The position numbers and the translations under genes are program-made. From a virus: 34,080 bases of DNA. The notes under the pieces are model-generated. The model ran no database searches. It saw only the letters and a list, made by a program, of their open reading frames with translations, and was not told where the DNA came from. Positions 1-34,080 of this stretch are shown one piece after another (the first letter of the stretch is position 1; every line of letters starts with the position of its first letter). The stretch spans positions 1-34,080 of IMG/VR virus record IMGVR_UViG_3300020205_001474. One strand, given 5' to 3'.

Positions 1-99
1 CTTTGAAAAGATGTCTGAAGGCCATGAGTACGTCATGGAAGCTGTCGAGATGATGGCCGCACTAATGGGCGCCCAAGAGGAGCCAGTTGAAGACGAGGC
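1..99. repeat. Terminal redundancy, left copy (circular assembly overlap)
   Basis: These 99 bases are identical to the last 99 bases of the window (33982-34080), and the protease reading frame continues in phase across the join. The simplest reading is a circular or circularly permuted genome opened at an arbitrary point by the assembler, because the repeat lies inside a gene and its length is a typical assembler k-mer. A true short terminal repeat is less likely but not excluded. The unique genome length is 33,981 bp. Confidence 0.95.
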
Positions 100-13308: not shown

Positions 13309-13455
13309 ATGAGTAACGAGACACCGATTCGCACTGTCCGAGTGAATGACAAGCTGTGGAAAGCTGCCAAGACGCAAGCCAAACGCAGCGACACCACCAT
13401 CTCTGAAGTTATCAATCAGGCTTTGCGGGATTTCACGTCCAAGAAGGCTTCATGA
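13309..13455 (+). CDS. Ribbon-helix-helix DNA-binding protein
   Basis: This 48-aa protein has the pattern of a CopG/Arc-type ribbon-helix-helix: a short beta strand (IRTVRVNDKLW), then a helix (KAAKTQAKRSD) and a second helix after the turn (TTISEVINQALRDFT). Dimers of this fold bind DNA operators. It overlaps the start of the adenylosuccinate lyase gene (ATGA). It is the only clear regulator candidate in the genome and might bind the TGTAT-N9-ATACA repeats at P1 and P2, which is inference. Confidence 0.7.
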   Translation: MSNETPIRTVRVNDKLWKAAKTQAKRSDTTISEVINQALRDFTSKKAS

Positions 13456-14702
13456 TAGCGCGGTACACCTCGAGCGACATGGCCGCTGTTTGGTCCGACG
13501 AAGCCAAGTATCAGACTTGGGCCGAGGTCGAAATCGCAGTGATGCGAGCACAGGGCAGGCACGGCGTTGTCGCTTCTGACTTGTGGAAGGCTCTGAAGCT
13601 GACCCTGTTGCCAACACCAGCGCAAGTCGCCGCGCAAGAGCAGATCTTGAAGCACGACCTGATGGCATTCCTCGAGGCTTGGCGGCTCAACACCGACAAC
13701 CGCGAACTGCACAGGTGGCTTCACTACGGGCTTACCAGCTCGGACATTGTGGAGACAGGCCAGGCGACTTTGCTAGCTGAAGCCAACTGGCTGATCTCAA
13801 ATGCGGGCTACCGCCTTCTAGATTCTTTAATCGATCACGCTTTCAAATATAAGGACACTAAGCGAAGCGGCCGCACTCACGGTCAATTCGCCGAACCCAC
13901 AACCTGGGGCTATCGGGTGGCGGATTTCGCATTCGCTATCGAACGGGGGCTCGAACGACTCGGCTACTCCTGCGGCGGGGTTCAGACTGCACACATCTCG
14001 GGACCGTTGGGCAACTATGCTCACACCCCGAGGAGCGTAGAGCTGGACGTAGCTAAGGAGATGGGACTAGCCGTGCCCGATAGCGCTACCCAGGTGTTGA
14101 TGAGAGACTCTCTCGGAGCCTGGGCTTATTCATTGGCCAGCCTTGCCACTATCTGCGAGGGTTTCGCTCTCGAGGTGCGGCACGGCCAGCGCTCTGAGGT
14201 GCAGGAGATCTTTGAAGGCAGGAGTGAAGGCCAAGAAGGCTCCAGCTCTATGCCCCACAAGGAGAACCCAATCACCGCTGAGAAGATCTGCGGCTTGGCC
14301 AAGATAGCCAGGTCGTACGTCATGCCACTCACCGAGGGCATCGCTTTGTGGCATGAACGAGACATCAGCCACTCATCTGTTGAGCGAATCGCTCTGCCCG
14401 ATCTGTGTGCTATCACCGAGCACATCTTGATTGAGACTGCTAAGATGGTGAACAACTTACGAATAAATGAAGCTGGCATGTTCGAGAACACCCGCCAGGG
14501 CAGTACGACCATGCTAAACAAATATATTCAAGAAGGTATGACTCGCAACGAGGCTTACCAAGCTGCAAAAAGCGGGCTCCGTGAGAACTGCCCGCCAGCC
14601 GACACCCAGCACACCTGGGACCTTTTGTCAATGCTGAAAATAGCTCTCAACGAGGCGCGTGTCATGAGCGGCGTGTCGCAGTCAGAAATCGGTCGCTCAT
14701 GA
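13452..14702 (+). CDS. purB: Adenylosuccinate lyase-like (PurB family)
   Basis: This 416-aa member of the fumarase/aspartase superfamily has the PurB signature SSSMPHKENP (about residues 262-271) and other hallmark blocks: HYGLTSSDIVET (with the first catalytic His), GRTHGQFAEPTTWG (second His) and LWHERDISHSSVERI. It is closest in layout to the B. subtilis type. The family removes fumarate from adenylosuccinate; together with PurZ it would turn 2-aminodeoxyadenylosuccinate into dZMP. In most B. subtilis-type PurBs the signature reads KRNP rather than KENP; E. coli has KVNP, so this is tolerated. Known Z phages usually rely on the host PurB, so a phage copy is unusual. It lies about 6 kb from purZ in the same early region. 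Confidence 0.92.
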   Translation: MIARYTSSDMAAVWSDEAKYQTWAEVEIAVMRAQGRHGVVASDLWKALKLTLLPTPAQVAAQEQILKHDLMAFLEAWRLNTDNRELHRWLHYGLTSSDIVETGQATLLAEANWLISNAGYRLLDSLIDHAFKYKDTKRSGRTHGQFAEPTTWGYRVADFAFAIERGLERLGYSCGGVQTAHISGPLGNYAHTPRSVELDVAKEMGLAVPDSATQVLMRDSLGAWAYSLASLATICEGFALEVRHGQRSEVQEIFEGRSEGQEGSSSMPHKENPITAEKICGLAKIARSYVMPLTEGIALWHERDISHSSVERIALPDLCAITEHILIETAKMVNNLRINEAGMFENTRQGSTTMLNKYIQEGMTRNEAYQAAKSGLRENCPPADTQHTWDLLSMLKIALNEARVMSGVSQSEIGRS

Positions 14703-16262: not shown

Positions 16263-16344
16263 CCCAATCGTGCCAGCTCCTGACTGGGGGCGTCAGCCTA
16301 ACATTCCCGACCACGAAATCTATGAGGACGAGGACGACGAATGA
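16249..16344 (+). CDS. Tiny acidic ORF between nuclease genes
   Basis: This 31-aa ORF (ATG 16249 to TGA 16344) overlaps the previous gene by 14 bases and the next by 4 (ATGA). It is Pro-rich in front and ends in EIYEDEDDE. Coding status rests only on its perfect fit between two genes and the continuity of translational coupling. Confidence 0.35.
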   Translation: MSIVDPIVPAPDWGRQPNIPDHEIYEDEDDE

Positions 16345-17075
16345 GCTATGCCAGACTATTCAGCGACCAAGAGGAGTACGCAAACGCCGTTCGCGACGTT
16401 GTTGTCCAAGCAGGTGTTTGGTCTCCTAGAGCTGGGCAAGTTCAGATCGGCCCCAGCGAAGTCGGCCACAAGTGCACCCGTCGCCTCGCTTACAAGCTGC
16501 TCGACTGGGACAAGCCAAACGAAATGCAAGGCGGTTCGTGGGCCGCGCAGGTCGGCACTGCTATTCATGCGTACCTCGCAGAGGTCTTCGGCAAGCGTGA
16601 GGGTTTCCTCATCGAGCAACGCGTCACAATCCGAGGCAACCTTGCAGGCACCGTCGATCTCTTTGACATCAAGAACGGTGTGGTGCTCGATTGGAAAACG
16701 ACGGGCGCAACTAAGTTGGCAAACTACAAGAAGTTCGGGGCAGATCACCAGCAGCTGGTTCAAGTTCAACTTTACGCCTACGGACTGGCTCAACAAGGAG
16801 CTGAGGTCAAGAAAGTGGCGCTGTGCTACCTACCGACGTCAGGCTCACTCACAGACATGGTCCTTATCATGCACGATTACGACGAGCAAGTCGCCCTCAA
16901 CGCTTTGGCGCGTCTTGACTCGATTCACGCACTACTGGCCGCGGCAGACGTCGAAGCCAACCCCGAGATTTGGAGTCAGATACCAGCGCAGCCTGACAGG
17001 CTTTGTGCTTGGTGTCCATACTTCAAACCATTCAGTAAGTCTCTCGTAGAAGGGTGCCCAGGTGACACTGCCTGA
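16341..17075 (+). CDS. Cas4/RecB-like exonuclease with Fe-S cluster
   Basis: This 244-aa protein is a PD-(D/E)XK nuclease of the Cas4/RecB group. The core is AGTVDLFDI (Asp106) and VVLDWKTT (Asp117, Lys119), with a QVQLYAYGL helix (about residues 141-149) typical of the family's QxxxY motif. Four Cys that could hold an iron-sulphur cluster are at residue 45 (GHKCTRR) and 222, 225 and 239 (CAWC and GCPG), the standard Cas4 spacing. Such phage enzymes resect DNA ends for recombination and replication. It is coupled to its neighbours at both ends and sits just before the SSB-like gene. Confidence 0.88.
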   Translation: MSYARLFSDQEEYANAVRDVVVQAGVWSPRAGQVQIGPSEVGHKCTRRLAYKLLDWDKPNEMQGGSWAAQVGTAIHAYLAEVFGKREGFLIEQRVTIRGNLAGTVDLFDIKNGVVLDWKTTGATKLANYKKFGADHQQLVQVQLYAYGLAQQGAEVKKVALCYLPTSGSLTDMVLIMHDYDEQVALNALARLDSIHALLAAADVEANPEIWSQIPAQPDRLCAWCPYFKPFSKSLVEGCPGDTA

Positions 17076-17753: not shown

Positions 17754-19967
17754 ATGTCTTTAGAGGTACTCACAGCGGCGCTGCGATTCGCGGCAGCTGG
17801 CTGTTCAGTCGTGCCAGTCATGGCCGACGGCTCAAAGCGCCCAGGCATCGGTGCGTGGAAAGAGTACCAACACAAGCTGCCAACAGTTGAAGAACTTCAG
17901 GCTTGGTTCAAGGACGCCAAGGGCGTCGGTATCATCACGGGCAAGATCTCAAACAACCTCGAAATGCTCGAGGTCGAGGGTCGAGCGGTTGCAGACGGCA
18001 TTCACACTGAAATCAAAGACATGGCAATCGAGACTGGACTTGGAGAACTTTGGCAGCGGCTGAACGAGGGCTACTGCGAAATGACTCCGAGCGGCGGTTT
18101 GCACTGGTTCTATCGCTTAGACGGTGAAGTCCCTGGCAACACCAAGTTGGCAAGACGACCTGCTTCAGGCGACGGTGTTGATGTGCTTGCCGAGACCCGC
18201 GGTGAAGGTGGCTTCGTGGTTGCGGCTCCAAGCGGCGGCTCTTGTCACCCATCAGGTGGCTCTTGGTCTTTGATTTCAGGTTCGATTGAGACAATCCCGA
18301 CAATCACTCTCGAGGAGCGCGAAAGTCTCCATTCCTTATTTAGATATTTCGACCAGCTTCCAAAAGCCTCAGTGGTAGCTTCAGAGGTCACGGAGAGGCA
18401 TCGGGACGCGAACTCGACACTGCCAGGCGACGACTACAACGCAAAGACGACTTGGGACGAGATCTTGTTGCCACTGGGCTGGACAAAGGTATTCTCAAAG
18501 GGGCAGACGACCGCTTGGTGTCGCCCTGGCAAGCACGACGGCATCAGCGCCACCACCAACTATGAGGGTTCAGATCTGCTCTTTGTCTTTAGCACTAGCA
18601 CCATCTTTGAAGCAGAGCGCGGCTATTCCAAGTTCGCGGTTTACACCCTGCTGGAGCACGGCGGCGACTTCCATAAGGCAGCGTCAGCGCTAGCTGCGAA
18701 AGGCTTTGGCAGTGGCGTTTCAAGCTCGCTGCAACCGATTGACATTTCACAACTGATGCAAGCGCCCGAGCCTGAGCCATTTGCAGAGCCTGCGACAGAG
18801 CCCGACACCAGTTGGCTTCCAAGGACGATTGAATACGACGAGGACGAGACCGAGGCTGGCCCTACAGTTCTCTATCGCACAGACGGCCAGTGCTTGCTCT
18901 ACGCTGGAAAGATTAACGCGATTTTCGGAGAGTCAGAGTCGGGCAAGACCTGGGTGGCGCTGGAAGCCGTGCGCCAACAGCTGGTGCAGGGCAACAAGGT
19001 CTTTTATATTGACTTCGAGGATTCAAAGCGCGGTATTCGTGGCCGCCTGAAGGCACTTGGCGTCATGCGAGATCACTTTGCTCGCTTCAAGTACGCCAAC
19101 CCTGACGGCTCCTACAATGAGATCGCCCAGCAAGCACTGCTCGGTTCGATTCGCGACTTCACCCCCGACTTGATTGTGATGGACGGTGTCAACGCCGCCA
19201 TGAACCTGTTAGGCTTAGACCTTGAAAAGAACAAAGACGCCACCCAGTTCAGTCAGGTAGTCTTGCGACCGCTTCGCCTTTGGGGTGCAGCTGTCTTGAC
19301 CATTGACCACGTCACAAAGTCCAAGGACAACCGAGGCAACTACGCAATCGGCGCACAGGCCAAGCGTGCAGATATTGACGGCGTTGCGATCTCGGTGGAC
19401 GTGTCTATGCCTTTCGGTCGAGGCTCCAACGGCAAGCTCAACCTGAAGATCACCAAAGACCGCCCAGGCTTTGTTCGCGGCATCAGTCAAGAGGCCTCTT
19501 ATGTCGGCCACGTCGATCTGATTTCGCAAGCTGATAGCCGAATCGAGATCTCTATTGTCGGCGGGCAGATCGGCTTCACTCCTCACGAATATCTGATGCG
19601 CAAGGTATCGGAGTTCATGCAGAACCACGGCGCCGAGCTCTCAACCAACCAAATCGTCCAAGCGATTGACGGCGGCACCGACCAGATTAAAAAGGCGCTT
19701 GCTCAACTCGAGGGCCAAGGCTTCTTGGCGATTAGAGCTCAGGGCCAAGGGCGCTATTACAAGCACCTAAAGTCCTATGTCTTGGGAGCGCCCCAGCCGT
19801 TTGGCGGTGCTTTGGATAACTTGACCGACTTGACCGACCCTGACCGTGGGGGTATCGGTCAAGTAGGGGCAAGAGGCGACCGAAACTTGACCGACTTCGC
19901 CCCCCCCTATAAGGGGGGGCGGTCGGTGAAGTCGGTCAGCAGTGATGATGGTGAACCTGATGCGTGA
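17754..19967 (+). CDS. PrimPol-helicase: DNA primase/polymerase fused to RepA-like ATPase
   Basis: This 737-aa protein is the phage's main replication protein. Residues 1 to about 185 form a bifunctional primase/polymerase domain: a GCSVVPV opening, an acidic pair in EMLEVEG (Glu73 and Glu75) where the metal-binding acids are expected, TPSGGLHWFY, and GVDVLAETRGEGGFVVAAPS. Residues about 380-590 form a RecA-type ATPase like RepA or AAA_25, with Walker A GESESGKT (392-399) and Walker B LIVMDG (473-478). A winged-helix-like segment follows at about 610-670. The C-terminus is low complexity and its DNA carries dense repeats (19821-19938). No separate DNA polymerase gene exists here, so host Pol III must do most synthesis unless the PrimPol domain does. 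Confidence 0.88.
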   Translation: MSLEVLTAALRFAAAGCSVVPVMADGSKRPGIGAWKEYQHKLPTVEELQAWFKDAKGVGIITGKISNNLEMLEVEGRAVADGIHTEIKDMAIETGLGELWQRLNEGYCEMTPSGGLHWFYRLDGEVPGNTKLARRPASGDGVDVLAETRGEGGFVVAAPSGGSCHPSGGSWSLISGSIETIPTITLEERESLHSLFRYFDQLPKASVVASEVTERHRDANSTLPGDDYNAKTTWDEILLPLGWTKVFSKGQTTAWCRPGKHDGISATTNYEGSDLLFVFSTSTIFEAERGYSKFAVYTLLEHGGDFHKAASALAAKGFGSGVSSSLQPIDISQLMQAPEPEPFAEPATEPDTSWLPRTIEYDEDETEAGPTVLYRTDGQCLLYAGKINAIFGESESGKTWVALEAVRQQLVQGNKVFYIDFEDSKRGIRGRLKALGVMRDHFARFKYANPDGSYNEIAQQALLGSIRDFTPDLIVMDGVNAAMNLLGLDLEKNKDATQFSQVVLRPLRLWGAAVLTIDHVTKSKDNRGNYAIGAQAKRADIDGVAISVDVSMPFGRGSNGKLNLKITKDRPGFVRGISQEASYVGHVDLISQADSRIEISIVGGQIGFTPHEYLMRKVSEFMQNHGAELSTNQIVQAIDGGTDQIKKALAQLEGQGFLAIRAQGQGRYYKHLKSYVLGAPQPFGGALDNLTDLTDPDRGGIGQVGARGDRNLTDFAPPYKGGRSVKSVSSDDGEPDA
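19821..19938. repeat. Iteron-like GACCG repeats and large hairpin (candidate origin)
   Basis: The motif TTGACCGACTT and its core GACCG recur in both orientations at about 19821, 19830, 19841, 19855 (inverted), 19878, 19888, 19919 (inverted) and 19931 (inverted). TGACCGACTTC (19888-19898) and GAAGTCGGTCA (19928-19938) are a perfect 11-base inverted repeat. Inside lies GCCCCCCC/GGGGGGGC (899-906 and 913-920 of the 19 kb block) with a 6-base loop. All of it lies within the 3' end of the PrimPol gene, where it codes for low-complexity sequence. It could be a replication origin, a regulatory site or a pause/terminator hairpin. Confidence 0.7.
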
Positions 19968-20307
19968 TCTTAGTAGCAGGGATTTTTTGCAGGATAAAGT
20001 AGCTGAAGAGAGTTTCTGTCGTGTTTGTGGAGCTGCGTTTTGGAAGGCGCAGTGGTGCGGTTTTTCGGTGTTTTCGGACTGCACCCCCATTGACACCAAG
20101 ACAGAGATCGAGTGCTTCTTAACAAAGCGCCCGACGTACGGTGTTTCTAGGTGGTCGCCCAGCTTCTACCTAGAACACCGATCAATGCTCAACATACACA
20201 AGCAATACGAGTTCATACTCGCCAAGCATCTTTGCGGTTCAACCCAGGCCGTGAAGGAGCACCTAACCTACTGGGCAGCACCAAAACAACTCGAACCTAA
20301 CTTCTAA
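19960..20307 (+). CDS. Hypothetical protein with Cys pair, overlapping PrimPol end
   Basis: This protein of about 115 aa is not recognised by function. ATG 19960 overlaps the PrimPol stop by 8 bases; in-frame ATGs at 19942-19948 are also possible and no start has a good ribosome site. It has CRVCGAAFW near the start, then SDCTPIDTKTEIECF, RPTYGVSRWSPSFYLEHRSML and a helical end with KHLCG. The conserved-looking Cys, Arg, Pro and Tyr suggest a compact zinc-binding protein. It may take part in nucleic-acid binding near the candidate origin. Confidence 0.6.
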   Translation: MRDLSSRDFLQDKVAEESFCRVCGAAFWKAQWCGFSVFSDCTPIDTKTEIECFLTKRPTYGVSRWSPSFYLEHRSMLNIHKQYEFILAKHLCGSTQAVKEHLTYWAAPKQLEPNF

Positions 20308-20319
20308 AAGGGGGAACAA

Positions 20320-21354
20320 ATGGCAGGACGTCTCATCGCCGTAGTCGGCGGTCAGTATGGCAGTGAAGGAAAGGGCGCCGTAGCAGGTTACCTATCCGCA
20401 ACCTCTGATGTACCGTTCATGGGAATCAGAGTGGCAGGACCAAACGCAGGGCACACCGTCATCGGCAAAGGCCCTAACGGCGAGGAGTCATACGCATGGC
20501 GACTTCGCTCAATCCCAGTCAACGCAGTGACTGCACCCGAGTCTGACCTCATCATCGCGGCAGGCTCTGAGATCGACATGGAAGTCTTTAACAGAGAGCT
20601 TTCAGAACTAGACCAAGCTGGCTACCAGGCTAGTTCACGCATCATCGTGGACGACCAAGCCACAATCTTGGAGCCTCGCCACCACGACATTGAGACCAGT
20701 GACGGCATTCAAGCCCGAATCGGCTCAACAAGCAAAGGCATCGGCGCTTCACGTGCCGACCGCATTATGCGCAAGGCCTCTCTATTCGGCGGTGGTGTAG
20801 ATACTTCACAAGTTATTCGCGAGCACCTACAAAGAGGCGGCACTGCTCTAATCGAAGGCACACAGGGCTACGGCCTTGGACTGCACGCAGGTCTGTACCC
20901 GTTCTGCACAAGCCAAGACTGCAGAGCCTTGGACTTCTTAGCGCAAGCTGGCGTCAGCCCGTGGGACCGTGCAGTTGATGTCTTTGACATTTGGGTCACA
21001 GCTCGCACTTACCCAATCCGCGTTGCTGGTAACTCAGGGCCGCTGGAGAACGAGACCAGCTGGGAACAGCTAGGACTAGAGGCTGAACGCACGACCGTGA
21101 CTCAAAAGATTCGCAGAGTCGGGCACTTTGACAGCAAGCTAGTTCGAGATGCTGTTATTGGCAACGGTGGTGCTCCAACTGTCAAGATCGCACTCACCAT
21201 GTTTGACTATATCTTTCCTGAGCTGAAAGACCAAAGCCAAATAGACATCTTGTCTGAGGAACAACAACGCTACATCACCGACATCGAGAGTGCAGTGAAC
21301 GCACCAGTTAAGCTGGTCGGCACTGGACCTTCAACGATGGCGTGGGTCAAATGA
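20320..21354 (+). CDS. purZ: PurZ-like 2-aminodeoxyadenylosuccinate synthetase
   Basis: This 344-aa enzyme is related to adenylosuccinate synthetase (PurA) but has phage PurZ features. The P-loop is GGQYGSEGKG (residues 10-19) with Ser15 where PurA has its catalytic Asp, a change that makes room for the 2-amino group of dGMP. The catalytic His is kept (PNAGH, His45). The segment YPFCTSQDC (193-201) matches PurZ rather than the YPYVTSSN type of bacterial PurA, and TTVTQKIRRVGHFD (258-271) is the aspartate-binding loop. It is far shorter than the roughly 430 aa of PurA. PurZ joins aspartate to dGMP in the pathway that puts 2-aminoadenine into phage DNA. It starts after AAAGGGGGAAC and overlaps the next gene. 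Substrate choice is inferred from motifs. Confidence 0.88.
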   Translation: MAGRLIAVVGGQYGSEGKGAVAGYLSATSDVPFMGIRVAGPNAGHTVIGKGPNGEESYAWRLRSIPVNAVTAPESDLIIAAGSEIDMEVFNRELSELDQAGYQASSRIIVDDQATILEPRHHDIETSDGIQARIGSTSKGIGASRADRIMRKASLFGGGVDTSQVIREHLQRGGTALIEGTQGYGLGLHAGLYPFCTSQDCRALDFLAQAGVSPWDRAVDVFDIWVTARTYPIRVAGNSGPLENETSWEQLGLEAERTTVTQKIRRVGHFDSKLVRDAVIGNGGAPTVKIALTMFDYIFPELKDQSQIDILSEEQQRYITDIESAVNAPVKLVGTGPSTMAWVK

Positions 21355-21746
21355 GAAACGGGTTCAATGAGTGGCAGGACATGGCAGCGGCCTTCAGAAA
21401 AGAGACTCCCACACAAGACGCACCGACCGTGCAGAGTCTTGCGAATTGGTGGCTGGACGAGACCAAGAACGAATTAGACTCTGTCATACCAAAAGCCGTG
21501 GAGTACGGCAGCGCAGATCTGAAAGTCATCGGCTTTGCTTTGAGTCAGATGATTGGCAAACCGACTAACGTGACAGATGATGAACTAGGCATCGCCTTTT
21601 ACGTGCTCGGCAAGGTCGCACGTCTAATCGGTGGCTATGCAGATGGCCGAGCGCCTTCTGACGACACATGGCACGACATCGCTATCTACACCAAGATGGC
21701 GCAATACGCACGCAAGCACAACGGCTGGGGTGGATTCGTCGAATGA
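21351..21746 (+). CDS. MazG/MazZ-like candidate or nucleotide-modification-associated protein
   Basis: This 131-aa all-helical protein starts at ATG 21351 (ATGA overlap with purZ). It has ESVIPKAVEYG-like spacing (acidic helix, then KAVEYGSADL) and a C-terminal helical block DDELGIAFYVLGKVARL ... SDDTWHDIAIYTKMAQYAR, whose acidic D-D-E and D-xxx-D positions recall the metal-binding acids of all-alpha NTP pyrophosphohydrolases. In known Z phages, MazZ turns dGTP into dGMP, the substrate of PurZ, and lies beside purZ. Direct coupling here supports that role. The match is weak by eye and the classical EExxE motif is not clear. Similar proteins are common in actinophages without PurZ. Confidence 0.5.
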   Translation: MRNGFNEWQDMAAAFRKETPTQDAPTVQSLANWWLDETKNELDSVIPKAVEYGSADLKVIGFALSQMIGKPTNVTDDELGIAFYVLGKVARLIGGYADGRAPSDDTWHDIAIYTKMAQYARKHNGWGGFVE

Positions 21747-22171
21747 TAGTCTACCTCGCTGGCCCGATCGATTTCGTCACTGGTTCAAAAGTGAACAAGC
21801 TAAAAGACGAAATCAAAGCACACTTCAAAGAGCAGGAGTGTGTGTGGGTGTACGACCCAGCTGGTGCATGGAACGCACCGAGCGACCTTGTCCCCGATGA
21901 GTTCGTGCACTGGGCTAACTTGCTTGTGCTCGAGCAATCCGACCTTGTTGTTGCAGTGTTGACGAAAGGCGTGCTTACAGTGGGCACGATTCTTGAAATC
22001 CAACATGCACACGACAACGAGATTCCTGTCGTCGTAATTGGCGACCTTGGAATTAACAGCGTAGGACTGGCAGCGCTAGACGTGCCAGTGTTTGAATCAA
22101 TAATGGAATGGAGTGATTATGGCAGCCCTGTTGTACCGCGTACTGACGCCGACTGGCTTAGCGCCAACTAA
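21743..22171 (+). CDS. Nucleoside 2-deoxyribosyltransferase-fold protein
   Basis: This 142-aa protein has the fold's opening IVYLAGPIDF and its active-site region LLVLEQSDLVVAVLTKGVLTVGTILEIQHAHD, in which the Glu of LEI is the likely nucleophile; the usual closing strand VVVIGDLG follows. Family members move or remove the base of deoxynucleosides, and some act as deoxynucleotide hydrolases. It is coupled to the MazG-like gene (ATGA) and overlaps the dUTPase gene by 53 bases, so it belongs to the nucleotide-pool cluster with PurZ. It might remove unwanted dNMPs such as dAMP or salvage bases. That specific role is speculation. Confidence 0.7.
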   Translation: MIVYLAGPIDFVTGSKVNKLKDEIKAHFKEQECVWVYDPAGAWNAPSDLVPDEFVHWANLLVLEQSDLVVAVLTKGVLTVGTILEIQHAHDNEIPVVVIGDLGINSVGLAALDVPVFESIMEWSDYGSPVVPRTDADWLSAN

Positions 22172-22550
22172 GGCGTACGGCGACGATGCAGGTTTCGATC
22201 TGTATTGTGACGCAGAAATGGTGATCGAACCAAGCACTTTTGTGGACGTTCCACTTGGTGTTGCAATCAAAGTGCCCGAGGGGACTTGGGGCTTGCTAAC
22301 AGCTCGCTCCAGCACCTTGCGCAAGCACGGCCTCATGGTGGCACAAGGTGTCATTGATTGTGGCTACACTGGCCCACTTTTTGCAGGAGTGTGGAACATG
22401 ACTGACAAACCAGTCAAAATCGAACCTGGCATGCGCCTGGTTCAGTATATTCTTATGACCAACGCTTCTCTTGATGTTCAAGCACAAGAGGTGGCAGAGC
22501 TTCCCAAAACCGACCGTGGCGCCTCGGGTTTTGGGAGTTCAGGTGTCTGA
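22119..22550 (+). CDS. dut: dUTPase (deoxyuridine triphosphatase), trimeric family
   Basis: This 143-aa protein carries all five dUTPase motifs in order: DAGFDLY (1), ARSSTLRKHGLMV (2), GVIDCGYTGPLFAGVWN (3), PGMRLVQ (4) and RGASGFGSSG (5). It hydrolyses dUTP to dUMP, keeping uracil out of phage DNA and feeding thymidylate synthesis. ATG 22119 follows GGAG (22109-22112); a GTG at 22113 is possible but less well placed. The C-terminal Gly-rich motif is complete, so the enzyme should be active. It completes the nucleotide-pool cluster after purZ. Confidence 0.92.
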   Translation: MAALLYRVLTPTGLAPTKAYGDDAGFDLYCDAEMVIEPSTFVDVPLGVAIKVPEGTWGLLTARSSTLRKHGLMVAQGVIDCGYTGPLFAGVWNMTDKPVKIEPGMRLVQYILMTNASLDVQAQEVAELPKTDRGASGFGSSGV

Positions 22551-30463: not shown

Positions 30464-30682
30464 ATGGCAACAGTAATCGAGGTTGACTGCTCAACTGGAA
30501 TCTCAACAGAGCGTGAGATGACAACAGCAGAAGTAGCCAATATGGAAGCAGTGCGGGCGGATGCAGAAGCACGTCGTGCTGAAGAAGAAGCACAAGCAGA
30601 AGCAACCGCAACTGCTAAAGCATCAGCTGAAGCAAAACTTGAAGCACTTGGTTTAACTGCAGAAGAAATCGCTGCACTTTAG
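30464..30682 (+). CDS. Small coiled-coil protein after fibre paralogues
   Basis: This 72-aa protein has a short strand (ATVIEVDCSTGISTERE), then a long Ala/Glu-rich helix (AEARRAEEEAQAEATATAKASAEAKLEALGL) and TAEEIAAL. The same form, a conserved front followed by an Ala/Glu helix and LGLT-EE, closes fibre modules in many aquatic phages. It may be an assembly helper or fibre cap. Confidence 0.65.
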   Translation: MATVIEVDCSTGISTEREMTTAEVANMEAVRADAEARRAEEEAQAEATATAKASAEAKLEALGLTAEEIAAL

Positions 30683-30702
30683 TGAATAAGGTCGGGGGAC
30701 CA

Positions 30703-31779
30703 ATGAGATTTCACGTTGTATCACTTCCACACACGAATACAACAAAAGACTTTACAAGTTGCGCATTCACTGAAAAGGTGAGGCGCTTCTGCATCATGAT
30801 GACGAACCTCGGACATGAGGTTTTCCTTTACGCTGGCGAGCAAAACGAAGCACCAGTGACAGAGCTCATCACTTGCATTTATGAAGACCAAAGAGCGGCT
30901 GCAACCGCGGGCGGTCATTACACGACAGCCTCGTTTAACACGACTTTGCCGCATTGGCAAGTCTTTAATACGAACGTCATTCGCGAAATGACAACAAGGC
31001 TCCAACCAAAAGATTTCATTTGTTTGATCGGCGGCTACGCACACAAACCAATCGCAGATGCTTTCCCTGACCACATGTCGGTGGAGTTTGGCATTGGCTA
31101 CGGTGGCACCTTCGCACGGTACCGCGTTTTCGAGTCCTACGCATGGATGCACTCCGTTTATGCTGGGCACAAGAATCCGACCACTATAGATGGCAACTTC
31201 TTTGATGGAGTCATCAACGGCTACCTAGAACCTGAGCAATTCCCAGCTGGTAAAGGCGACGGCGACTACTACTTTTTTATCGGCAGACTGATCGAGCGAA
31301 AAGGCTACAACATCGCGCAAGAAGTCTGCGAGCGCCTTGGCAAGAGGCTTATAATCGCTGGCCCTGGCCAACCAAATGGCGGCTATGGCGAGTTCATCGG
31401 CAACGTCGGCCCTAAAAAGCGGGCAGAGCTCATGGGCTCAGCGATTGCGCTTTTTGCGCCGACTACCTACATCGAGCCCTTTGGCAATATCGTGATCGAA
31501 GCTCAGACCTGCGGCACTCCGACCATCACAACTGACTGGGGCGCATTCACTGAGACCAACGTTCATGGTGTCACAGGCTTCAGGTGCCGCACACTCGCGG
31601 ACTTCATGAAGGCGGCAGAGGACGTCAAGTCTTTGAACCGCACAAAGATCAGAAAGCAAGCAATCGAGAAATACTCACTCGAAGCGATAGCACCAAAATA
31701 CCAAGACTATTTTGAGAGGCTGTTGACCCTTTGGGACGACGGCTGGTACCAACTAGACACAGAAAAGGCTGGCAAATGA
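30703..31779 (+). CDS. Glycosyltransferase, GT-B fold (family 4)
   Basis: This 358-aa protein starts at ATG 30703, chosen because GTCGGGGGACC precedes it; a GTG at 30682 would add seven residues. It has a GT4-type C-terminal half: FIGRLIERKGYNIAQEVCERL (donor-domain start), RLIIAGPGQP, MGSAIALFAPTTYIEPFGNIVIEAQTCGTPTI with the E-x7-E nucleotide-sugar motif, and GVTGFRCRTLADF. It probably adds sugar to virion proteins, maybe the collagen-like or capsid proteins; the acceptor is unknown. Its stop overlaps the portal start (ATGA). Confidence 0.88.
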   Translation: MRFHVVSLPHTNTTKDFTSCAFTEKVRRFCIMMTNLGHEVFLYAGEQNEAPVTELITCIYEDQRAAATAGGHYTTASFNTTLPHWQVFNTNVIREMTTRLQPKDFICLIGGYAHKPIADAFPDHMSVEFGIGYGGTFARYRVFESYAWMHSVYAGHKNPTTIDGNFFDGVINGYLEPEQFPAGKGDGDYYFFIGRLIERKGYNIAQEVCERLGKRLIIAGPGQPNGGYGEFIGNVGPKKRAELMGSAIALFAPTTYIEPFGNIVIEAQTCGTPTITTDWGAFTETNVHGVTGFRCRTLADFMKAAEDVKSLNRTKIRKQAIEKYSLEAIAPKYQDYFERLLTLWDDGWYQLDTEKAGK

Positions 31780-33209: not shown

Positions 33210-34080
33210 TGCCATATTATATCTCGGACCAACAAAGTGATTGCTCGGGCTGGGCAACTGTAATGCAAGAATCAGACGGCAGCTACACCACAATAGGCTG
33301 CCATGACACCAAACAAGACGCGATTGACCAAATGGTCGCAGTCTCTATTTCTGAGGATATGGAGCCTGGGGGCGAAGTTGGCCAACGAACAACCGTCGGG
33401 GACGATAGGAGCAAGATGAAGAAGATCGAACGTCGTACTTACACAGTGCGAAACGTGGAGACACGAAAAGAGGACGACGGCAAAATGCGCTTGTCGGGCT
33501 ACGCTGCTGTGTTTAACAACGCCAGCGTGCCGCTACCGTTCATCGAGTACATCGCACCTGGCGCTTTCCGTAAGACCCTAAGCGAGACTCCTGATGTACG
33601 CTTGTTAATCAACCATGAGGGCCTGCCGCTAGCACGCACTAAGAATGGCACTCTTACTTTAACCGAGGACGAAGTTGGCTTGCGGTTTGACGCAGAACTG
33701 CCTGACACAAACGAAGCTCGAGATCTTTACACACTTATTGAGCGAGGCGACGTCGATCAGATGAGCTTTGCATTTCGCGTGATACGACAGAAGTTTAACA
33801 AAGACCGCAGCGAGCGCACACTGACTGAAGTGTCACTGTCTGACGGAGACGTCAGTGTTGTCACCTACCCAGCTTATCCAACAACTTCAGTTGAAGCGCG
33901 TGAGCATTTGGCTCGGGCAATTCAAGCCGTTAAAGAAGGTCGCGAGGTTTCAGGCGAATCACTTATCGTCTTGCAAAGCGTCTTTGAAAAGATGTCTGAA
34001 GGCCATGAGTACGTCATGGAAGCTGTCGAGATGATGGCCGCACTAATGGGCGCCCAAGAGGAGCCAGTTGAAGACGAGGC
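33209..34080 (+). CDS. Prohead protease with extra N-terminal domain (continues at window start)
   Basis: This open frame starts at ATG 33209 (TAATG overlap with portal) and continues across the circle join to position 211, giving 327 aa. Residues 1 to about 69 form an extra small domain (PYYISDQQSDCSGWATV, TIGCHDTKQDAIDQMVAVSI), common in actinophage proteases. The HK97 U35-type protease follows: SGYAAVFNN, YIAPGAFRKTL, VRLLINHEG with the catalytic His, and the Ser in DQMSFAFRV. It cleaves the capsid delta domain during head maturation. A good internal ribosome site (AGGAG, 33407-33411) precedes ATG 33416, so a shorter 258-aa form is likely also made. Confidence 0.9.
   Translation, partial: MPYYISDQQSDCSGWATVMQESDGSYTTIGCHDTKQDAIDQMVAVSISEDMEPGGEVGQRTTVGDDRSKMKKIERRTYTVRNVETRKEDDGKMRLSGYAAVFNNASVPLPFIEYIAPGAFRKTLSETPDVRLLINHEGLPLARTKNGTLTLTEDEVGLRFDAELPDTNEARDLYTLIERGDVDQMSFAFRVIRQKFNKDRSERTLTEVSLSDGDVSVVTYPAYPTTSVEAREHLARAIQAVKEGREVSGESLIVLQSVFEKMSEGHEYVMEAVEMMAALMGAQEEPVEDE
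33982..34080. repeat. Terminal redundancy, right copy
   Basis: This is the same 99 bases as 1-99. See the left copy: the genome is best read as a circle of 33,981 bp with the protease gene continuous across the join. Confidence 0.95.

Follow-up and report, generated by a model that had tools for sequence, protein, structure and literature searches.

The stretch of viral DNA analysed here (the window; 34,080 bases, of which 33,981 are unique once the terminal repeat is subtracted) appears to be the genome of a PurZ0-type phage that would make 2-aminoadenine (Z) DNA by a largely self-contained route to dZTP. We put the probability of this reading, in which the enzyme activities and the base Z itself are inferred from sequence, at roughly three in four. 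On the proposed route, a DutZ-like enzyme, perhaps together with the product of orf134, would convert dGTP and dATP to dGMP and dAMP, PurZ0 would join dGMP and aspartate to give dSMP, a phage PurB-type lyase would cleave dSMP to dZMP and fumarate, and host kinases would raise dZMP to dZTP. A DmtZ-like enzyme would destroy dAMP and could also recycle free Z base to dZMP. Replication would probably fall to a PrimPol that, like the PrimPol of cyanophage S-2L, need not prefer Z; adenine would therefore be kept out through depletion of dATP, with no need for a polymerase that selects Z. The features that bear on this route are as follows.

1..99, no strand: terminal direct repeat, copy 1 (exact 99-bp identity with 33982-34080)
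13452..14702, + strand: purB-type lyase, predicted to convert dSMP to dZMP and fumarate (TIGR00928; catalytic-type residues; linkage)
16341..17075, + strand: Cas4/PD-(D/E)XK exonuclease within the purB-to-dutZ block (phrog_1674, PF12705)
17754..19967, + strand: PrimPol with an AAA/RecA-like domain, the sole polymerase candidate detected (PF09250, PF13481)
19942..20307, + strand: orf121, between PrimPol and purZ0 (phrog_10480; present in 43 related loci)
20320..21354, + strand: purZ0, predicted 2-amino-succinyl-deoxyadenylate synthetase, dGMP + Asp -> dSMP (NF038379, PHROG 1211, PurZ0 clade, dGMP-pocket residues)
21342..21746, + strand: orf134, possible MazG-like dNTP pyrophosphohydrolase, start codon uncertain (synteny, pLDDT 88.8, weak fold matches)
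21668..22171, + strand: dmtZ-like gene of the nucleoside deoxyribosyltransferase family, alternative start at 21743 (PF05014; Ghobes DmtZ residues)
22113..22550, + strand: dutZ-like gene of the dUTPase family, alternative start at 22119 (TIGR00576 over cut-off; 44.6% to Ghobes DutZ)
33982..34080, no strand: terminal direct repeat, copy 2 (exact 99-bp identity with 1-99)

Because the terminal 99 bases are identical at both ends, the assembly is complete and self-closing, and two relatives (L062 and L063) span the portal-to-capsid junction that corresponds to the window ends. Capsid, portal, terminase, tail and lysis genes are all encoded. Two glycosyltransferase-like genes lie amid the structural genes, one right after the capsid gene (1754-2449) and the other before the portal gene (30682-31779). 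Nearly all TerL relatives belong to phages of Actinomycetota and the N-terminal half of the PrimPol is 52% identical to proteins of Arthrobacter globiformis phages, so that the host is likely an actinobacterium. The genes of interest form a block in the order purB, a 104-aa ORF, rusA, two small ORFs, the Cas4-like exonuclease and a 149-aa ORF, followed by PrimPol, orf121, purZ0, orf134 and the dmtZ-like and dutZ-like genes, and this whole block is kept across related IMG/VR loci. orf121 overlaps the end of the PrimPol gene, and its conservation (about 50-95%) is below that of its neighbours. One relative carries about 1.3 kb of additional sequence ahead of the PrimPol gene (L026:2669-4080); in another (L041, 10895-12593) purZ is cut and the end that carries orf134, dmtZ and dutZ has the opposite orientation, which may reflect an assembly fault.

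The initial annotation had read the protein encoded at 20320-21354 as PurZ-like, and the motifs it had listed (GGQYGSEGKG, YPFCTSQDC and TTVTQKIRRV) were all found. The ORF begins with ATG, encodes 344 aa and is preceded by aaaaggggg, which resembles a ribosome site. Its PurZ-like identity was borne out by the NCBI PurZ model NF038379 (341.6 bits, E 3.5e-102, against a curated cut-off of 300 bits), by a nearly whole dGMP pocket and by its place in the PurZ0 clade. The Pfam adenylosuccinate synthetase fold is retained, and the scores for the PurA equivalog models are far under their cut-offs (e.g., TIGR00184, 163 bits versus 395.55 needed). The best match among solved structures was 7VF6, the PurZ0 of Gordonia phage Archimedes (PMC12884076). 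The same annotation had named Vibrio phage phiVC8 as its example of PurZ, but the closest kin lie elsewhere: the phiVC8 enzyme is 30% identical, whereas actinobacteriophage PurZ0 proteins, those of Streptomyces phages Keanu, Galactica and Hiyaa, reach 51-53%. In a quick tree, a check that the annotation had proposed, grouping with PurA was absent and the protein fell in a PurZ0 clade (window, Keanu, Wayne, Archimedes and Ghobes) that stands apart from both PurZ and PurA with an SH-aLRT support of 100. A PurA origin was thus ruled out by model scores, residues and tree. The PurZ type of phiVC8 and S-2L, which goes with datZ and mazZ, was rejected as well: it forms a separate clade, and tblastn detected no DatZ, MazZ, DUF550 or DUF5664 homologue in the window. 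We conclude from these comparisons that the protein is a member of the PurZ0 branch and not of the phiVC8 branch, with a predicted activity on dGMP.

With the ligand contacts of S-2L PurZ as the pocket reference (PMC8342488), the base pocket proved intact at Y13, G14, S15, N42, A43, T137, Q182 and V235, while Tyr203 of S-2L PurZ is replaced by Phe195. The aspartate loop T258-T261 is intact, with Thr258 in place of the PurA glycine. Asp296 occupies the position of S-2L Gln308, and an aspartate is also found there in archaeal PurA and in all PurZ0 proteins tested. This residue hints that GTP rather than ATP supplies the energy, but where PMC12884076 links the two groups to ATP and GTP, the order seems to be reversed.

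Ser15 stands where PurA has its catalytic aspartate, in a column that is invariant across PurZ0 and PurZ. The annotation had relied on this serine and on the length of 344 aa; both are present, but neither is diagnostic alone, because a large cellular PurA-like family has both, and a short length is also common to archaeal short PurA. A scan of species genomes with the PurZ alignment returned hundreds of cellular PurA-like stretches, and GSEGKG occurred in nearly all of the 80 that were kept, a share that gives no estimate of frequency since the scan patterns included the serine. Members of this cellular Ser-type family (L068-L146; e.g., L071:1385-3833 and L075:2725-5446) occur in many bacteria and archaea. 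Of 79 loci, 59 have a dCTP-deaminase-like gene near the PurA-like gene, in most cases immediately downstream and in the same orientation, and a deoxynucleoside kinase gene comes next in 23. The PurA-like and DCD-like members that were compared with PADLOC matched nothing there, and the neighbourhood looks like an uncharacterised nucleotide operon. The purZ0 protein might have the function of this cellular family, unrelated to Z-DNA, since the serine, most pocket residues and the threonine of the aspartate loop are common to both. We regard this as scarcely credible: the tree puts the cellular Ser-type sequences outside the phage PurZ0 clade, and the cellular genes adjoin dCTP-deaminase-like and deoxynucleoside kinase genes, not DmtZ or DutZ. 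The argument for a PurZ0 identity of the phage protein is one from the tree and not from the serine.

As in the described PurZ0 Z-DNA phages, where dmtZ is frequent, homology and tblastn searches found both a dutZ-like and a dmtZ-like gene in the window; tblastn showed PurB homology as well. The best matches of the DutZ-like protein are from PurZ0 phages, and its identity to the DutZ of Gordonia phage Ghobes is 44.6%. Identity of the DmtZ-like protein to characterised DmtZ is low (33%). All five residues of Ghobes DmtZ that were tested by mutation (Tyr6, Asp12, Pro57, Asn77 and Glu103; PMC12884076) are aligned in it, while the lid residue Trp124, whose role was modelled and not demonstrated to be essential (PMC12884076), is a serine in the clade of the window. 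The activities of DutZ, DmtZ and DUF5664 from PurZ0 phages were established in the same work (PMC12884076).

The window lyase passed the TIGR00928 cut-off (332.1 versus 326.2 bits), its residues H68, H143 and S264/S265 are invariant among phage homologues, and the GSSSMPHK loop is kept. It shares the family and the active-site residues of host PurB (solved homologue 1C3U, Thermotoga maritima), but differs in being phage-encoded, in lying in one block with purZ0 and in its predicted substrate, dSMP. purB was found in every relative whose contig extends to its position; L026 apparently lacks the gene because its contig begins at the RusA gene, short of that position. Eighteen of 36 further PurZ0 contigs gave a PurB match, in several contigs purB adjoins purZ0 or sits between purZ0 and dutZ, and PurB-like annotations exist in PurZ0 phages of Streptomyces and Gordonia. 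This linkage of purB and purZ0 in separate lineages argues that the phage PurB serves the Z pathway; its specificity for dSMP, which cannot be read from sequence, is what we infer. Published accounts assign the step from dSMP to dZMP to host PurB (PMC12884076, PMC12783734, PMC8342488), and a search of non-subscription papers found no published link between phage PurB and Z. A phage-encoded PurB alongside PurZ0 goes beyond the accounts found and suggests an exception to the host-PurB rule. One PurZ0 phage contig with PurB-, orf134-, DmtZ- and DutZ-like genes (L067) was binned with a bacterial genome, as a contig of the Verrucomicrobia MAG LaPlata bin-0894.

PurA and PurB form the standard pair of steps from IMP to AMP. 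A host-derived PurA-like enzyme and PurB could thus supply ordinary adenine for DNA with normal A, as the retained synthetase fold and a PurB annotated in a Microcystis jumbo phage might also suggest. Yet the protein widely misses the PurA equivalog cut-offs and passes the PurZ model, carries Ser15 for Asp and Thr258 for the loop glycine of PurA, and falls with PurZ0, and the adjacent DmtZ- and DutZ-like genes have dATP- and dAMP-destroying enzymes as homologues, all of which makes an adenine supply very unlikely. Synthesis of 2-aminoadenine is the predicted function supported by the tree, the curated model, the pocket residues and the DmtZ-like, DutZ-like and PurB neighbours; Z is probably present in the virion DNA, be it as whole or partial replacement.

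The gene that follows purZ0 may add a further enzyme. The orf134 family lies directly after purZ0 in 50 of 55 diverse loci, and in four of the five loci without it the place is taken by DUF5664, a dATP/dGTP pyrophosphohydrolase (PMC12884076). The two families are mutually exclusive, with the DUF5664 protein of Arthrobacter phage Wayne in the same slot, but hhalign detected no similarity between orf134 and single DUF5664 (Wayne's among them), MazZ or DUF550 sequences. No Pfam family matched orf134. Among 50,697 phage records, 31 hits were found (Microbacterium 18, Gordonia 6, Streptomyces 5, Curtobacterium 1, Micrococcus 1), and the counts for Microbacterium, Gordonia and Streptomyces equal the respective PurZ hit counts. 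K49, Y53, K89, R92, D106, D110 and Y114 are invariant. An AlphaFold model built from 54 sequences was all-helical and confident (pLDDT 88.8); one from a shallow alignment (pLDDT 56) was discarded. Searched against BFVD, the model matched its own orthologues first, then DUF6378 and Nmad1 with marginal E values of 0.05-1. A PDB search returned no significant match, and its low-Z rows include, below the top, MazG-type pyrophosphohydrolases with S-2L MazZ among them. Position, the mutual exclusion with DUF5664 and these weak fold hints suggest that orf134 is a dGTP/dATP pyrophosphohydrolase, a proposal on which we are evenly divided. The family as a near-constant follower of purZ0 goes beyond the published accounts found.

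DpoZ-1 is reported to follow PurZ0 (PMC12884076), and PolA was reported in all Z phages except S-2L (PMC8342488). The family A polymerase model PF00476 matched nothing in the complete window or in 12 close relatives; as a control, it scored in nine of ten reference Z phages, the exception being S-2L. Family B and C polymerases (PF00136, PF07733) were not detected in the window or in any PolA-less record tested, and neither tblastn nor PF00476 revealed DpoZ in the window. Of the 36 further PurZ0 contigs, 24 carry PolA and 12 do not. Several of the PolA-less contigs, 40-45 kb long, make up one clade (L225, L228, L232 and L234), and L235, L239, L242 and L256 a second; some short PolA-less contigs (G017, G018 and G041) may be fragmentary. 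On the tree, a minimum of six changes of PolA state is required, S-2L counted. PurZ0 occurs without a family A polymerase in the clade of the window and probably in two further clades; as far as we found, such a lack has been published for S-2L only. Raw counts hint that loss of PolA goes with DmtZ and PurB (Fisher p 0.004 and 0.006, respectively), but tree-independent pairs are too few for such a link to be claimed. In the survey of L204-L258, a DmtZ-like gene was present in 17 of 17 PolA-less and 26 of 26 PurB-bearing PurZ0 records, a suggestive pattern for which tree-independent pairs are again too few.

Most PolA-less PurZ0 records encode a PrimPol. That of the window retains the motifs ExE, SGGLH and GVDV, and the acids of the first motif may be Asp or Glu (PMC8065100). 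It is probably the replicase, although this task could also fall to a polymerase of the host. The protein looks mosaic: besides the N-terminal half with its 52% identity to Arthrobacter globiformis phages, it has a C-terminal half that shares 36% identity with a Microcystis phage MinS1 AAA ATPase. Because a Z-selective polymerase is absent, PurZ0 might make dZMP and Z nevertheless replace only part of the adenine; DpoZ was not found, and the S-2L PrimPol, on which replication of that phage relies exclusively, accepts A and Z alike (PMC8065100). S-2L, however, reaches full replacement with this non-selective PrimPol through removal of dATP (PMC8065100), and the DutZ-like and DmtZ-like genes of the window would serve the same purpose. 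We therefore consider partial replacement unlikely.

The phage predicted here, with PurZ0 and a route to Z-DNA, shares features with two known groups. With the actinophages Keanu, Archimedes, Ghobes and Wayne (PMC12884076) it has in common the PurZ0 clade and the downstream DmtZ-like and DutZ-like genes, and with the first three of these also a homologue of orf134 and a gene resembling purB. All four, unlike the window, have a DNA polymerase I, their genomes are larger (44-82 kb versus 34 kb), and tblastn at E 1e-4 detected no similarity in structural genes or PrimPol. S-2L (PMC8342488, PMC8065100) resembles the window in Z synthesis, which is predicted for the latter, and in a PrimPol as the sole polymerase candidate. 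It differs in having PurZ instead of PurZ0, and DatZ and MazZ where the window has DutZ- and DmtZ-like genes and PurB; at a tblastn E of 0.01, no similarity is seen between their PrimPols.

These observations hint at a wider PurZ0 programme, which combines a phage PurB dedicated to dSMP, orf134 as an unnamed kind of dNTP pyrophosphohydrolase that almost always accompanies PurZ0, and PrimPol-based replication of Z-DNA without a Z-selective polymerase in several lineages, that of the window among them; we advance it tentatively, with the odds leaning slightly against the combination as a whole. The genome of the window and its relatives break the rule that a Z-selective DNA polymerase I comes with PurZ0, and they suggest that the rule of host PurB taking the step after PurZ has an exception. 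The lack of a detected Z-selective polymerase hints that Z-DNA is made here by another route, and, if this is true, Z-DNA can be assembled repeatedly from different parts. The phage PurB and orf134 are two testable genes that may be of use for making Z-DNA inside cells.
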